DNA from: Microvenator marinus
GTDB lineage: Bacteria > Myxococcota_A > Bradymonadia > Bradymonadales > Bradymonadaceae
NCBI RefSeq assembly: GCF_007993755.1
Contig: NZ_CP042467.1
Span: 4,736,001 to 4,800,000 of the forward strand
DNA: 64,000 bases
Reading direction: 5' to 3'
The notes below the pieces were generated by a model. It ran no database searches and was not told the origin of the DNA. It saw only the letters and a list, made by a program, of their open reading frames with translations. A program made the translations under genes and the position numbers. Shown in pieces: positions 8,291-14,601 of the stretch; the stretch's first letter is position 1, and every line of letters starts with the position of its first letter.

Positions 8291-9190
8291 ATGATCGAAG
8301 TTGATTTCCGCGCGGTAGACCGAAAAGACCTGCCCCCGCCCACTCTGGATTTCCTCCACCTGGATACACTCTGGTTGCAGGTCACGGGTACACTATGCAA
8401 CCTCGCGTGCACCCATTGTTTCATCTCGTGTGGGCCGAAGAACGACTCCCATCCCTTCATGAGCCTCGACGATGTGCGGGGCGCCGTGGAGTCCGCGGCC
8501 GCGATGGGCGTACAGGAGATATATTTCACGGGCGGCGAGCCGTTCATGCACCCGGATATCAAGGAGATGATCGAGCTCTGTCTGGAGGTAGCGCCGCTCA
8601 ACATCCTGACCAACGGCATTCTCATCACTCCGGAGATGGCCGACTGGCTCGCGCACAAGTTCAAAACTGCCAAATACAGCCTCGATTTGCGCGTGTCCCT
8701 GGACGGAACTACTCCCAAAGAAAACGACGCCATTCGCGGCCGAAAGACGTTTGACAAAATCATCGCGTCCGTCGAGCTCCTCTGGAACGCCGGCATCAAT
8801 CCAGTCATCACCGTGACCACCTGCCATGCCGACCTTTCGGCTGTGGAAGGGCGCATGAAGTTCATCGAACTCCTCGCGGAACACGGCATCACACAACCTC
8901 GCATGAAGTTTCTCTCGCCGTTCAAAATCGGGCGCGAGGAGCGCCGCGATCAAGGCTATGCCGACTATCAGCGGCTCGTAGAGGGCGACCTCCTTGAGGG
9001 CGAGGAGCACGATCTTCAGTGTTCGAGCTGTAGAATGGTGACGGCCAAAGGTGTTTGGCCGTGTCCAATCCTCATCGAAGTGCCTGAAGCCCGCATGGGG
9101 ATTAGTCTTGACGATGCTGCTATTCCAATCAAGCTCGACCACCCCGCGTGTTATACATGCCATGTTGAGGGGGTTTCATGTCGGACATGA
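8291..9190 (+). CDS. Radical SAM protein with C-terminal Cys-rich (SPASM-like) region
   Basis: 299 aa. The radical SAM [4Fe-4S] motif is C36xxxC40xxC43 (CNLACTHC), followed by GGEP at 81-84 and the barrel strand DLRVSLDG near 132-139. Six further Cys residues at the C-terminus (244, 247, 258, 287, 290, 297) could bind an auxiliary cluster, as in SPASM/twitch enzymes that modify peptides. No short precursor peptide gene is evident within a few hundred bases. The stop codon lies inside the start of the phosphoesterase gene, so the two are almost certainly co-translated and functionally linked. Substrate and product are unknown. Confidence 0.85.
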   Translation: MIEVDFRAVDRKDLPPPTLDFLHLDTLWLQVTGTLCNLACTHCFISCGPKNDSHPFMSLDDVRGAVESAAAMGVQEIYFTGGEPFMHPDIKEMIELCLEVAPLNILTNGILITPEMADWLAHKFKTAKYSLDLRVSLDGTTPKENDAIRGRKTFDKIIASVELLWNAGINPVITVTTCHADLSAVEGRMKFIELLAEHGITQPRMKFLSPFKIGREERRDQGYADYQRLVEGDLLEGEEHDLQCSSCRMVTAKGVWPCPILIEVPEARMGISLDDAAIPIKLDHPACYTCHVEGVSCRT

Positions 9191-9963
9191 AAGTCCTGAT
9201 TTTTGGTGGGATTTACAACAACTATTTGGCGCTTGAAGCCCTGCTTGAAGCTGCCGAAAAAGAAGGCGTAGATCAGATTTACTTTCTCGGAGATGTCGGA
9301 GGTTTTGGCCCTCATCCCGACAAGGTATTTCCATACTTAAGAGATACCAAGAACATTTTCCTTATGCAGGGAAATTACGATCATAGTATCGGGAACAGAC
9401 TAGAAGACTGTGCATGCGGATACACCGACCCGAGAGATAATTATTTTGCACAGATTTCTTATGATTATACTCTGGAGAATACATCTGATGAGAACAAGGA
9501 TTTCCTAAAGTCCTTCGCGCCAGAATTTCGTCGCGATTGGGCTGGAAAACGCATACTCATGGCCCACGGTTCACCTCGTCGGGTCAATGAGTTCTTATGG
9601 GAGTCCACAAGTCCAGTAGGCTTCTTGGATTATATCTTAAAAGCGTCAGATTCTGACGTTCTTTTTGTGACGCATACGGGCATCCCCTGGATGCGTGAGT
9701 TTCGAGACGGAAGGAAGGTGGTCAATGTGGGCGCCATCGGAAGGCCTGCCAATAACGGGAAGACCACCGTGGATTACGTCATCGTGAATACCAACACGCT
9801 TGATATCACTCTTCACGAACTCGCTTATGACCATGTCCGGCTTGCGTCTGAGATGGCGGCTGAGGGGTTACCAGAGCCCTTTGTTCAGACCATCTTGACC
9901 GGATGGTGGACCACATGTCTCGAAGTCCTCCCTGCACGAGAGCGCGCGAGAGGAATTCACTAA
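9178..9963 (+). CDS. Metallophosphoesterase-fold protein with degenerate metal site 1
   Basis: 261 aa, calcineurin-like fold of the YfcE/MJ0936 type. The GD motif (38-39), GNYD (65-68), MAHGSP (His130) and a C-terminal THTG (165-168) are seen. The first motif, normally D-x-H-G-N, reads GGIYNN (10-15), so both metal ligands are missing, and the final GHTH reads THTG, so its second His is missing. All losses fall on ligands of metal site 1; the site 2 ligands (Asp39, Asn66, His130, His166) remain. GAGGGGG lies 4 bases before ATG 9178; a second ATG at 9187 overlaps the radical SAM stop. The gene is more A/T-rich than its neighbour. Confidence 0.8.
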   Translation: MSDMKVLIFGGIYNNYLALEALLEAAEKEGVDQIYFLGDVGGFGPHPDKVFPYLRDTKNIFLMQGNYDHSIGNRLEDCACGYTDPRDNYFAQISYDYTLENTSDENKDFLKSFAPEFRRDWAGKRILMAHGSPRRVNEFLWESTSPVGFLDYILKASDSDVLFVTHTGIPWMREFRDGRKVVNVGAIGRPANNGKTTVDYVIVNTNTLDITLHELAYDHVRLASEMAAEGLPEPFVQTILTGWWTTCLEVLPARERARGIH

Positions 9964-10025: not shown

Positions 10026-11315
10026 ATGAACAGTCGCTACGCTCTTATTTTCGCACCACTCCTTGCGCTCAGCGCTTGTGTAGACGGTCCGGATGCCGGT
10101 CAAACCGAGGCTGAAGTTACGTCTTTGCCGGGTTACCGCACTCAATTTTTTGCGCTCGAAGCCCCTGCAACGATCAACGTAGAAGGTGTTGGGCAGGTTA
10201 ATATCGAGGAAGATTATATTCCCGGCGTGGTCGCGTGTGAAAACGGCGGTGCCCCGCTTGAGGCGCTCAAGGCGCAAGCAGTTCAGGCGCGCTCGTTCCT
10301 CTACTACAAGATTTTTGTGGCGGGCCAGACCACCATCCGAAACAGCACTGCGGATCAGGTCTATTCGTGTTCTTACAGGCCGAACGGACCCGACGAGATT
10401 CACCGACGTGCCGCGCGTGAGACCAAGGGGCAGTACCTTGAGTGGAACGGAAATATCGTGGCTGCATTCTACGTGGCCGGCGCAATACCTCCGAATCCAG
10501 ACCCTGCAAACGCAATCGAGTCATGCAAGCCAAACGGTGGAAATGACCCCACATCAACTCAAAGATGGGTGACGTACAATTGGGGCAAATCGGGCTGTGG
10601 TATCGAAATGACGCCACTCGGTTGGGTGCCGGCAGATTGCAATAGAAACCCTCATAACCGCGGCTGTGCTTCGCAGAACGGCGAGGCATGCCTTGCGAGG
10701 GTGGGGTGGAAGTACCAGGACATGCTCGACTACTATTACGGTAGCGATATTGTTCTTACCAACGCCACGGGAACTCATGGTGGGCCTCCACCACGCGAGC
10801 TTACCGATTACGATCGATTCTGCGGTCTAAAGGCGGACGGCTCCTACTGTTTTGACGCGAACGTGCGTGTGGACTGTGCCGAGGAGTTTGGAGCCGGCTC
10901 AGAGGTATGCGGCGGTGGTTGCCAAGAAGGTGCCTGTGTGGCCGTTGAGGAGCCCGGAGACGAGACGTGTGGGGACCTTGCCGATGGCGCCCATTGCGCT
11001 GACGCAGCAACCCGCATTGAATGCGTAGAGGGCACGCTATCATTGAGTGAAAACTGTCCGGGTGGATGTGAGACTGGAACGTGTCTTGAGCCAGGCAACA
11101 ACACTCCAGAGATACCGTCCAATAACCAGAATCCAGAAAATCCAGAGAATCCGGAAGTGCCTAACAACCCGGATCCGACAACACCTGCTGAGTTCCCGTC
11201 GCTCGTCTCTACGTCAAATGGCAACGTCCAGTCATGTGCGACGGGTGGAGGGCCAGCGTCCTTGATCTTGACCCTCCTAGGTGTGTTGATGGTTCGAGTG
11301 AGACGCAGGGCCTAA
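10026..11315 (+). CDS. SpoIID/LytB-domain lipoprotein with Cys-rich repeats and MYXO-CTERM-like tail
   Basis: 429 aa. Signal peptide with lipobox ALSAC (Cys18). Residues 45-240 match the SpoIID/LytB domain, which in sporulation and amidase-enhancer proteins acts on peptidoglycan: VNIEEDYIPGVVACE, LKAQAVQARSF, and the YCS/ARETKGQYL region. Two Cys-rich repeats of about 45 aa follow (about 262-355), then an Asn/Pro-rich spacer, then SCATGGGPA, a hydrophobic segment and RVRRRA at the C-terminus, which is a MYXO-CTERM-like sorting signal. Having both a lipobox and a C-terminal sorting signal is unusual. A palindrome lies immediately upstream. Confidence 0.8.
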   Translation: MNSRYALIFAPLLALSACVDGPDAGQTEAEVTSLPGYRTQFFALEAPATINVEGVGQVNIEEDYIPGVVACENGGAPLEALKAQAVQARSFLYYKIFVAGQTTIRNSTADQVYSCSYRPNGPDEIHRRAARETKGQYLEWNGNIVAAFYVAGAIPPNPDPANAIESCKPNGGNDPTSTQRWVTYNWGKSGCGIEMTPLGWVPADCNRNPHNRGCASQNGEACLARVGWKYQDMLDYYYGSDIVLTNATGTHGGPPPRELTDYDRFCGLKADGSYCFDANVRVDCAEEFGAGSEVCGGGCQEGACVAVEEPGDETCGDLADGAHCADAATRIECVEGTLSLSENCPGGCETGTCLEPGNNTPEIPSNNQNPENPENPEVPNNPDPTTPAEFPSLVSTSNGNVQSCATGGGPASLILTLLGVLMVRVRRRA

Positions 11316-11326
11316 GCCCGCGTCCA

Positions 11327-12439
11327 CTACTTCATCAGGTGGCATTCCACGCCTTCGCGCGGACCGGACTGCTCAAACGAACTAAGTGCCCAATCGCCCC
11401 AACGTCGCTCGCCTGAAGGCCGCTGGCGCTCAAGCTTGTACGTGTAAAGACCGCACTGCCGTGGACGGCCCTCAAACTGGGCGTCAGCAGGACGCACGCC
11501 GCAAAGGAAGCCCTCGAACGATTCGTACTCGAAGCCTTCGCGCTCTTCCACCTGACCTGGCGCCAAGACGCGCGGCTTAGTTCCGGCAACCTCAGCAATT
11601 TTGCCTTTCAGCACCTTTTGCGCCGTTCGAAGCTCGGAACTCGCACGTGCGCCGTCAGGACAAGGCTTACCCACGGAATAGACCGCGTACTCCATATAGA
11701 GTTGACGCTCCTTGAGCTCAGCCACACGCATGCCAAGTTCCTTGAACTGACCGTTCAGCTCAGCAACGTCAGCGCCATACGTGTTCTCCATGGCGGTCAA
11801 GATAGTCTCAGACTTTGAAGCCAGGTCCTTGATACGGCTCCAGTCCTCAGCCAGCGTGGCCCCACGCCGATACTCACCTTCAATCGCGTTGAGGGCGTCC
11901 GTAAACTTCAAGAAGTCGCTCGGATCCATCTCGGCGTGAAACTCATGAGCCTCCGTGATCTTCTTCTCGATACGCGTGGCTTCGCGCTCAGCATCACCAA
12001 TCGCAGGTGCGAGTGAGTTCTGACGAAGCTTTTGGTCCTCAATCCAGGGGGCGAGACGCGCCATGAAGGCGTTGGCGATTTCCTGGCGTTGACCGTCATC
12101 ATCCTTTGCACACGCATCGAGCCGGCGGTACTCAAGCTCTCCTCGAGCCCCGGGGAAACACGCCTTGGGCTCTTCGTATCGGAGAAGTTCGTCGCGAATC
12201 GCCTTTGACTTAGCCGAATGCTGTCCGAAGAAGCGCGCGAGCTCGTCGATCTCGTAGTTCCCTGGTCCTTCAACGCGGTCAAGGTATGACTCGCAGTAGG
12301 TTCGCCAATCTTCCTCAAGGAATCGCGGGAAGGCGCCTTGTTCGCAGTATTTGGGGGTGCCACAGCTCGAAGCCAGCAGCCCCGTGATCATACAACCCGC
12401 CAACAGCGCCCGAGTCATCGGGTCCAACTTGGTGTCCAT
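11327..12439 (-). CDS. Lipoprotein with long helical region, unknown function
   Basis: 370 aa. Lipobox LASSC at Cys26 of the longer form. The mature protein is largely helical with coiled-coil-like stretches rich in Glu, Lys and Arg (about residues 130-290), and Cys residues in the N- and C-terminal parts. Two starts are possible: ATG at 12437-12439 with a strong GAGGAG 5 bases upstream, or ATG at 12416-12418, which overlaps the stop of the GspE-like gene as ATGA. The Shine-Dalgarno favours the first. In either case the gene overlaps the upstream fusion gene and is probably translated with it, suggesting a joint envelope function. No known domain was recognised. Confidence 0.7.
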   Translation of the reverse strand: MDTKLDPMTRALLAGCMITGLLASSCGTPKYCEQGAFPRFLEEDWRTYCESYLDRVEGPGNYEIDELARFFGQHSAKSKAIRDELLRYEEPKACFPGARGELEYRRLDACAKDDDGQRQEIANAFMARLAPWIEDQKLRQNSLAPAIGDAEREATRIEKKITEAHEFHAEMDPSDFLKFTDALNAIEGEYRRGATLAEDWSRIKDLASKSETILTAMENTYGADVAELNGQFKELGMRVAELKERQLYMEYAVYSVGKPCPDGARASSELRTAQKVLKGKIAEVAGTKPRVLAPGQVEEREGFEYESFEGFLCGVRPADAQFEGRPRQCGLYTYKLERQRPSGERRWGDWALSSFEQSGPREGVECHLMK

Positions 12440-14601
12440 CTCAACTCCTCTTGTGGAATGATTCCGCCCGCTACAAGCCTTTGTGCGGACATCTGTAAAG
12501 TCGTAACGCCATCTTCTTGCGCTACCATTCTGAGCGCGTCAATGCCATTACCCTTTGAAATTTCGGATCGTAGCCGTGGCGAAACTTCCAGGAACTCTGT
12601 GACAGCGATGCGCCCGCGGGTTCCGCGGCCTTCGCAAACTTCGCACCCTTTGGACTTGAAGGCTTTGCCGTCTTCCCAGTTCATGGCCTCAGAGAGCTCG
12701 TCGCTTAGTGACGTCTCGGTCTTGCACGCAGGACAAAGTCGTTTTGCCAGACGCTGTCCAACCACCGCGATCAGCTCGCTCGCCACGGTGTCGGATGGGA
12801 CGCCAAATTCAGTCAGGGCACGCACACCGTCGATGGTGTCTCGGCCAGTGATGACGCCAATGACGAGGTGTCCGGCACGGGACGCTTTGACCGCCGTGTG
12901 CGCAAGCTCAGCGTTGTCGATATCTCCAATCAATATTGCGTCAGCATCATCTCCCATCACTGAGGTTAAGGCTGCTGCAACGCCGAATCCGGCACGAGGG
13001 TCGACCTTGATCTGATAGACGTTGGCCAACGAATACGTCACAGGGTTTTCGACCGAAATCACCTTTCGCGTCACGTTCTCTGCGACATGGCCGATCGTGG
13101 CGTACATCGAGGTCGAACGCCCTGAACCAGACGGCCCGACCACCAAGATCAGGCCCGAGCGTCGGTCACAAAGGTGGCGAAGCCGCTCCGCAGAACCTTC
13201 CGGGAATCCGAGCTCCTCAAGAGTCTGCACCCTGTGGTCCTGAGGAAGGATTCTAAGGGTCACCGTCTCGCCGAACTGCGTAATCTGTGTTCGAGCGCGG
13301 ACGTCGTAGATACGGTCGGCCAGGCGCCGCTGAAAGTGGCCTTGCTGAGGTCGGGTACGCTCGGCTTGGTCCATCCGTCCGCTGACCTTCACTAGGTTGA
13401 CGATGCCACCGAGTCGCTCCGCGTTGAGCTCAAACGATTGCGGATGCAGGTCGCCGTCAATTCTAAACCTCACTCGCACCTCGCCCTCATGACGCTCAAA
13501 ATGTACGTCACTCGCACGGCGCTCGATGGCTTGGTTGAGCAGGGCCTCGAAGAACGAAATCGTCTCCGCATCAAATTTCGGAGCAGCCTGCTTCGCCGGT
13601 GCCGGCGCGCCCAAATCGACTTCAGGCTGAGGCTCTTTGCGGTCGAGCGCGCTCCACACAATCTCATAATCAGTAGGCGAGATAAGCCCGAGGTCGATCG
13701 TGACAAGGTTGAGGGCGGCCGCGAGCTCATGCGCCTGTGCATAAGGGTCCGAGGTCACAACCTGCAGCACTCCCTGATGTTTCATCACAGGAATGATCCG
13801 GTTATGACTCATGAACGCGCGAGGCATGCTCTGGACGAATTGCTTGTCCATATGCCGCAGCACTTGCTCGGCGGACCAAAGCTTCATGTCGTTTTGCTTG
13901 GCGAGCGCCTGATAGATATCACCTTCCTGGACGTAATGGCCTTCGAGCAGAGCTTCACCGAGTTTCTTACCCTTCACATCTGCCTCCATCGCCGCCATTT
14001 CCACTTCGTGCCTATCCACCACACCCATTTCGACGAGGATATCGCCCAGCAAAGGCTTCACCGTGAGCTCTCCCAGGTACTCTTCCTTGAAGCTTGAGTC
14101 GGTGTAGCGTTTCATGCGCACGAGCTGCACGCCCGAGCCCTGGATCAATGGCGCTACGAGGCTTCCCTGATTCCCAAGTCGTTTGGCCAGTTTTTGAGGC
14201 AATTCCTTCATGCTCGCTGAGACCAAGATCCCATCGTACGGGGCGTTCGCTGCGTATTGTTTGAGCGTGTTCCCGTAGAGCACCTGGACGTTCTTAAAAC
14301 CTAGCTCGGCCAGTCTCTTCGCGGCGAGCTTGGCCTGGTCTTGGTCTTTCTCCACGGAGAAGACCGAAGTTGCAAGGCGCGAAAGAATCGCCGAGATATA
14401 GCCAGAACCCGTGCCCACATGAAGGACGGTCCCGGCGTCCTTTAAGCCCATCGCTTGTACCATTTTGGCAGCGATTTCAGGCGCGTGAGCGGTTTCCCCA
14501 TTATCCAAAAAGTCTGCGTGTTTGACCTCACCCATCGCTTTCAAAACGGCGGGATCGTGGATGCCACGCTTCTTCAACCAATCAATACCAACTTCACTCA
14601 A
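12415..14601 (-). CDS. Fusion of PCMT-like methyltransferase, MshEN-like and GspE/PulE-like ATPase domains, catalytic motifs eroded
   Basis: 728 aa in three parts. Residues 1-185 resemble protein-L-isoaspartate methyltransferase: the SAM motif HVGTGSGY (61-68) is intact but the usual GQTIS active-site segment is absent. Residues 186-320 resemble the MshEN/GspE N-terminal domain. Residues 345-728 are GspE/PulE-like, with the zinc-binding pairs C623/C626 and C653/C656 kept. The P-loop is GPSGSGRS (489-496) with Arg495 for the invariant Lys, the Walker B GEIRD is GDIDN (559-563), and the His box (577-588) lacks its His. It may be a regulatory or scaffolding relative of the type II secretion / type IV pilus motor. 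No pilus genes adjoin it. Confidence 0.8.
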   Translation of the reverse strand: MSEVGIDWLKKRGIHDPAVLKAMGEVKHADFLDNGETAHAPEIAAKMVQAMGLKDAGTVLHVGTGSGYISAILSRLATSVFSVEKDQDQAKLAAKRLAELGFKNVQVLYGNTLKQYAANAPYDGILVSASMKELPQKLAKRLGNQGSLVAPLIQGSGVQLVRMKRYTDSSFKEEYLGELTVKPLLGDILVEMGVVDRHEVEMAAMEADVKGKKLGEALLEGHYVQEGDIYQALAKQNDMKLWSAEQVLRHMDKQFVQSMPRAFMSHNRIIPVMKHQGVLQVVTSDPYAQAHELAAALNLVTIDLGLISPTDYEIVWSALDRKEPQPEVDLGAPAPAKQAAPKFDAETISFFEALLNQAIERRASDVHFERHEGEVRVRFRIDGDLHPQSFELNAERLGGIVNLVKVSGRMDQAERTRPQQGHFQRRLADRIYDVRARTQITQFGETVTLRILPQDHRVQTLEELGFPEGSAERLRHLCDRRSGLILVVGPSGSGRSTSMYATIGHVAENVTRKVISVENPVTYSLANVYQIKVDPRAGFGVAAALTSVMGDDADAILIGDIDNAELAHTAVKASRAGHLVIGVITGRDTIDGVRALTEFGVPSDTVASELIAVVGQRLAKRLCPACKTETSLSDELSEAMNWEDGKAFKSKGCEVCEGRGTRGRIAVTEFLEVSPRLRSEISKGNGIDALRMVAQEDGVTTLQMSAQRLVAGGIIPQEELRWTPSWTR

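Follow-up and report, generated by a model that had tools for sequence, protein, structure and literature searches.

Bacteria have few known routes to complex organoarsenicals. The arsenosugar pathway of Synechocystis comprises ArsM and ArsS, the latter being the enzyme described by the TIGR04167 model, and the activity that defines ArsS is adenosylation of methylated As(III). Among proteins with a phosphoesterase fold, SapH (Spr1479; structure 3qfm) is an asymmetric Ap4A hydrolase, an adenine-nucleotide enzyme, and Vps29 is an example in which the fold has been repurposed. The published C-As-forming radical SAM enzymes are ArsS, which adenosylates arsenic, and ArsL, which transfers a 3-amino-3-carboxypropyl group to As(III) (PMC12159101, PMC8552651). 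ArsL is 428 aa long and has no more than three conserved Cys residues (PMC8552651).

The window, which is the whole 64,000-nucleotide stretch of Microvenator marinus DNA analysed here, contains a radical SAM gene followed by a phosphoesterase-like gene (Table 1). The overlap between these two genes that had been claimed in the original prediction is real. With the phosphoesterase read from ATG 9178 the overlap is 13 bases, and an alternative start at ATG 9187 gives an ATGA overlap; the same 13-base overlap was detected in 15 of the 22 loci of the order when best-fitting starts were used, the choice of start being heuristic. Elsewhere in the window, a 728-aa ORF on the minus strand (12415-14601) is an odd fusion of PCMT (protein-L-isoaspartate methyltransferase), MshEN and a type II/IV secretion ATPase (T2SSE), and a lipoprotein-like SpoIID-domain protein encoded on the plus strand (10026-11315) ends in a C-terminal CATGGGPASLILTLLGVLMVRVRRRA tail resembling a sorting signal.

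Table 1. Positions in the window of the two genes and of their motifs
Feature	Position	Strand	Basis or state
Radical SAM gene, 299 aa	8291..9190	+	ORF; Pfam Radical_SAM (PF04055), 78.6 bits
CxxxCxxC (C36, C40, C43), for SAM-binding cluster	8396..8419	+	40/40 radical SAM orthologues aligned
C-terminal Cys region of radical SAM, including R248 and CPxL motif	9020..9181	+	Alignment
Phosphoesterase-like gene, 261 aa	9178..9963	+	ORF; Metallophos_2 (PF12850), 43.3 bits (cut-off, 27)
Altered motif I, GGIYNN (aa 10-15)	9205..9222	+	G11 and Y13 in place of the metal-1 ligands D and H; 80/80
Motif II, G-D39, metal-2 ligand retained (bridging Asp in intact family)	9289..9294	+	80/80
Motif III, G-N66, metal-2 ligand retained	9370..9375	+	80/80
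C78-x-C80	9409..9417	+	80/80; present in intact sister family too
Motif IV, H130, metal-2 ligand retained	9565..9567	+	80/80
Altered motif V, THTG (aa 165-168)	9670..9681	+	H166 retained, second His replaced by G168; 80/80
C247 in C-terminal tail of phosphoesterase	9916..9918	+	80/80; intact sister sequences end earlier

Membership of the first protein in the radical SAM superfamily was borne out by the Pfam match and by the cysteines of the CxxxCxxC motif, which were present in all of the orthologues aligned. The original prediction had counted six extra C-terminal Cys residues in this enzyme. Five of these (C244, C258, C287, C290 and C297) are invariant across the family in the alignment of 40 proteins, and to that extent the count stands; the sixth, C247, is lineage specific, the position being a Cys in just 12 of the 40. 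A confident AlphaFold model (pLDDT 93.5) exhibited fold matches to SkfB, BlsE, anSME and MoaA. The five invariant cysteines and the matches to SkfB, anSME and MoaA recall the SPASM/twitch enzymes, in which C-terminal Cys residues hold auxiliary [4Fe-4S] clusters, any such clusters being invisible in sequence. This SPASM/twitch-like C-terminus, with SkfB, anSME and ChlB as the top fold matches, would fit an enzyme that matures peptides (RiPPs), the phosphoesterase then being an accessory protein. MoaA and BlsE, however, belong to the same fold class, the conserved partners of the pair are small-molecule enzymes, and no conserved small ORF was found near the pair in a search of 13 loci, in agreement with the earlier remark that no precursor peptide was recognised. 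This peptide-maturation reading was dropped for want of a conserved precursor ORF and is now highly improbable; the missing precursor is explained because nothing suggests a peptide substrate. Selenocysteine was also rejected for two genomes in which a TGA had been reported inside the radical SAM gene, as this stop precedes the true start.

The radical SAM enzyme of the window resembles ArsS in having the canonical CxxxCxxC motif and C-terminal cysteines in the order C, C, CxxC, C, and in belonging to a family found beside or tied to ArsM and with TIGR04282/04283 genes as neighbours, genes of a type that also adjoin ArsS at one locus (L157). In contrast to ArsS, it scored only 61 bits against the TIGR04167 cut-off of 300, lacks the DCDFNQ and CFGCTAGxGSSC motifs while having CPxL and ACxTCx6C, and has phosphoesterase and oxidoreductase partners. 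An identity as ArsS was ruled out by the score and motifs. In a profile comparison with ArsS, the match extends over the radical SAM core into the first part of the C-terminal domain; it was not used as evidence of kinship, since any radical SAM family would give one. Within the window's class, ArsS was detected in 13 genomes and the pair in none of those 13. The likeness to ArsL, from the arsQML genes for arsinothricin, would lie in a radical SAM enzyme working with ArsM on arsenic, which we infer for the window enzyme by analogy. At 299 aa, and with five further invariant C-terminal Cys residues, the window enzyme differs from ArsL in size and cysteine content, and on these two grounds an identity as ArsL was ruled out. 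By analogy, the enzyme would work like ArsS without being ArsS.

The identity of the second protein as a calcineurin-like phosphoesterase (PF12850) was borne out by both domain and fold matches, its AlphaFold model (pLDDT 92.6) matching 1nnw, 2gju, 3rqz and SapH 3qfm. Relative to the intact proteins 3rqz and 3qfm, the D-x-H-x-N of motif I corresponds to G11-x-Y13-x-N15 and the GH-x-H of motif V to T-H166-T-G168. Orthologues were drawn from the window's order and class and from a scan of named genomes, the scan giving 195 stretches with a relative, of which the best 80 were retained. The titles of the scan records, mostly MAG labels of which some may be wrong, cover about ten phyla altogether: Myxococcota (including Lujinxingia), Planctomycetota, Acidobacteria, Bacteroidetes, Calditrichaeota, KSB1, Latescibacterota, Gemmatimonadetes, Eisenbacteria and Ktedonobacteria. 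In all 80 of these best matches, G11, Y13 and G168 replace the three metal-1 ligands, and the metal-2 set of D39, N66, H130 and H166 is invariant, as are C78, C80 and C247. The invariance of the C-x-C is partly selected, as this motif lies inside one scan seed, whereas the metal positions lie outside the seeds. The two-metal ligand set (D-x-H, GD, GN, H and GHxH) is, hence, incomplete in this family through the loss of the metal-1-only ligands. The change from D-x-H-G-N to GGIYNN and from GHTH to THTG, with metal 2 kept, had been proposed from the window alone and now extends to the whole set; whether any orthologous partner keeps D-x-H had been set beforehand as a test, and none of the best 80 of 195 does. 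Simple decay was ruled out by this invariance and, as judged from the aligned proteins, the half-site is a conserved, fixed state.

In paralogous phosphoesterases of this class, D-x-H and GHTH are intact and the C-x-C is present as well, indicating that the C-x-C is older, whereas the missing metal-1 site and the C247 tail are derived. Sister phosphoesterases with all of the metal ligands intact were observed at five loci (L025 and L028-L031) and share a DDCGCAY C-x-C motif. The window family resembles SapH 3qfm and 3rqz in fold over the whole length (TM, 0.74 to 0.76) and in the metal-2 residues but, unlike these proteins with their intact D-x-H and GHxH, is without all three metal-1-only ligands and has the C-terminal C247 tail. 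A phosphoesterase fold without the usual active site is shared with the archaeal proteins 1nnw and 2gju and with Vps29. The archaeal proteins have lost the metal-2 residues too, whereas the window family keeps metal 2 exactly, and Vps29 is more distant from the window protein (TM, 0.41 to 0.43).

Co-occurrence of the two genes, also predicted originally, was examined in the 57 genomes of the window's class. Of these, 27 had the phosphoesterase and 28 the radical SAM gene, namely, the same 27 and a 99%-complete relative (G001; locus L154, G001:C1:538000-553000) that has kept the radical SAM gene and lost both the phosphoesterase and the oxidoreductase. In a sample of 294 Planctomycetota genomes, all 19 with the phosphoesterase had the radical SAM gene; in the class and in this sample the phosphoesterase was thus always accompanied by the radical SAM gene, whether or not the two were linked. 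For 14 genomes with an unlinked phosphoesterase, the radical SAM gene was located elsewhere in 11, mostly directly behind the oxidoreductase gene, and the other three are drafts. Fisher tests on co-occurrence ignore phylogeny. As the phosphoesterase almost never occurs without the radical SAM gene while the reverse happens, these distributions suggest that the phosphoesterase acts in support of, or after, the radical SAM step. A repurposed, possibly mononuclear, partner serving the radical SAM enzyme, as first proposed, fits both this strict co-occurrence and the uniform absence of D-x-H. Viral contigs yielded nothing in the scan, and plasmids nothing closer than phosphoesterases of ∼30% identity. 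A literature search found no account of such a pair, many subscription papers lying outside its coverage. In some Planctomycetota (L086, L093, L102 and L112) the phosphoesterase gene is located behind genes for an ABC-transporter ATPase and a protein of ~950 aa instead of behind the radical SAM gene.

The same observations bear on whether the phosphoesterase is an enzyme at all. Within the same arsenic module it could be a noncatalytic scaffold or an arsenical-binding partner, perhaps holding As(III) on C78, C80 and C247. The invariance of these three cysteines in the best 80 of 195 orthologues, the missing metal-1 ligands, the gene overlap, the presence of Vps29 among the fold matches and the absence of any phosphoesterase without a radical SAM gene in the class or the Planctomycetota sample are consistent with such a role. 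Conversely, the entire metal-2 set is invariant, which would be needless for a pure scaffold, and the C-x-C is present in the intact sister family and within a scan seed. A noncatalytic role is, therefore, considered a possible but distinctly less favoured explanation.

A third partner is a YpdA-like FAD/NAD(P) oxidoreductase, present in 26 of the 27 pair genomes of the class although unlinked there (in the window genome at G000:C1:3995473-3996618) and immediately preceding the radical SAM gene at many loci in other phyla. Around the oxidoreductase gene in the window's class, no further partner was conserved across families.

The original prediction named no pathway; the neighbourhoods of the pair point to arsenic. 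ArsM-type genes accompany the pair in records named Acidobacteria, KSB1, Myxococcales, Pirellulaceae and Calditrichaeota, and about ten loci have TIGR04282 'arsenosugar' transferase genes; these counts are uncorrected for shared ancestry, the ArsM-bearing loci carrying labels of five phyla, and the 'arsenosugar' names of TIGR04282 and TIGR04283 are annotations. One locus (L205) contains a five-gene operon of TIGR04282, oxidoreductase, radical SAM, phosphoesterase and ArsM-type genes. Two natural fusions were also detected. In the first (L192-L197), a radical SAM enzyme of this family and a complete ArsM make up a single protein of about 610 aa that retains all five C-terminal Cys residues and the ArsM cysteines, and at L196 this gene is followed by a TIGR04283 'arsenosugar' transferase gene. 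In the second (L099), oxidoreductase and radical SAM enzyme are joined in one protein, and the ArsM and phosphoesterase genes come next. No phosphoesterase orthologue was found in the genomes with the radical SAM-ArsM fusion, indicating that the phosphoesterase is not required for the chemistry of radical SAM and ArsM.

The pair-linked methyltransferases gave profile matches to solved arsenic methyltransferases (4kw7, 4fr0 and others), and C40, C64, C191 and C243 are invariant among them, so that the arsenic-site cysteines are kept (alignment A4). Their membership of ArsM rests on this homology and these cysteines; no curated equivalog cut-off was exceeded, the top score being 342 to 348 bits with the arsinothricin ArsM model (cut-off, 500). 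In a tree of the Planctomycetota proteins, the ArsM-type copies of most pair genomes formed one lineage, even when unlinked (support, 94/92), and second copies grouped with those of genomes without the pair. The ArsM-type family was enriched in the Planctomycetota pair genomes (11/19 versus 71/275 of the others, by a Fisher test ignoring phylogeny) and was absent from the remaining 8 of the 19 when searched for. In the window's lineage there were no arsenic neighbours at the pair locus, the ArsM-type gene of the window genome lying ~680 kb away. ArsM does not track the pair within the window's class and was undetected at the thresholds used, or gave weak partial matches, in some pair genomes that are nearly complete (G008, G010, G011 and G012, for example).

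These last observations, together with the fusion genomes that are without a phosphoesterase, are points against an arsenic module. The pair could instead modify another small molecule or a cofactor, with the nearby ArsM-type methyltransferases acting on that same molecule, as the pair occurs without ArsM neighbours in the window's class, ArsM is not strictly co-distributed and the TIGR04282 names are themselves inferred. Such a non-arsenic function is unlikely given the two fusions, the ArsM operons in several phyla, the pair-specific ArsM lineage, and methyltransferases in which the arsenic-binding cysteines are retained and which resemble solved arsenic methyltransferases. On the grounds of the ArsM and TIGR04282 operons, the two fusions, the pair-specific ArsM lineage and the lack of overlap with ArsS, the pair probably forms the centre of an uncharacterised module for organoarsenical (arsenosugar-like) biosynthesis, the chemistry being predicted from genes, fusions and folds. 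The best reading of the predicted module is an oxidoreductase, a radical SAM enzyme and a half-site phosphoesterase, joined in many genomes by an ArsM-type methyltransferase and GT-A-type transferases.

MFS or sodium-solute-symporter genes were observed directly upstream of the radical SAM gene at L075, L078, L114, L139 and at L105, L122, L127, in several phyla, and these transporters may move a substrate or product. They would also suit a radical SAM enzyme acting in the reverse, detoxifying direction, for example, by breaking a C-As bond or yielding an inert form of arsenic for export rather than making an end product, and in most bacteria ArsM serves detoxification. The glycosyltransferase-type neighbours and the non-overlap with ArsS, however, suggest synthesis, and we regard detoxification as rather improbable.

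In the proposed biosynthetic scheme, ArsM would make methylated As(III), to which the radical SAM enzyme, in an ArsS-like reaction, would join a 5'-deoxyadenosyl (or other SAM-derived) group, creating the C-As bond. The oxidoreductase would supply electrons or maintain the reduced state of the arsenical or of a thiol. The phosphoesterase-like protein would bind a single metal at the retained D39/N66/H130/H166 site, and the space vacated by metal 1 may hold the adenosyl-arsenical product, probably for hydrolysis or handing on; the similarity in fold to SapH, which acts on an adenine nucleotide, favours this reading. Action on the radical SAM product with one metal is the predicted and most likely role of this protein, a binding role being the main alternative.

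To our knowledge, the steps that follow ArsS in arsenosugar synthesis have no assignment. The compact and widespread module described here, with its ArsM fusions, offers testable candidates for a new enzyme that forms C-As bonds as well as for a step downstream. A more speculative reading, rather less likely than not, is that a further radical SAM route to C-As bonds, distinct from ArsS and ArsL, extends across Planctomycetota, Myxococcota, Acidobacteriota and other phyla, and that a phosphoesterase became a one-metal arsenical processor by discarding exactly one metal site. If true, organoarsenical synthesis would extend to further phyla, in which we know of no description of it, and the phosphoesterase family would clearly exemplify how a two-metal enzyme fold can be cut down to a single, fixed metal site.
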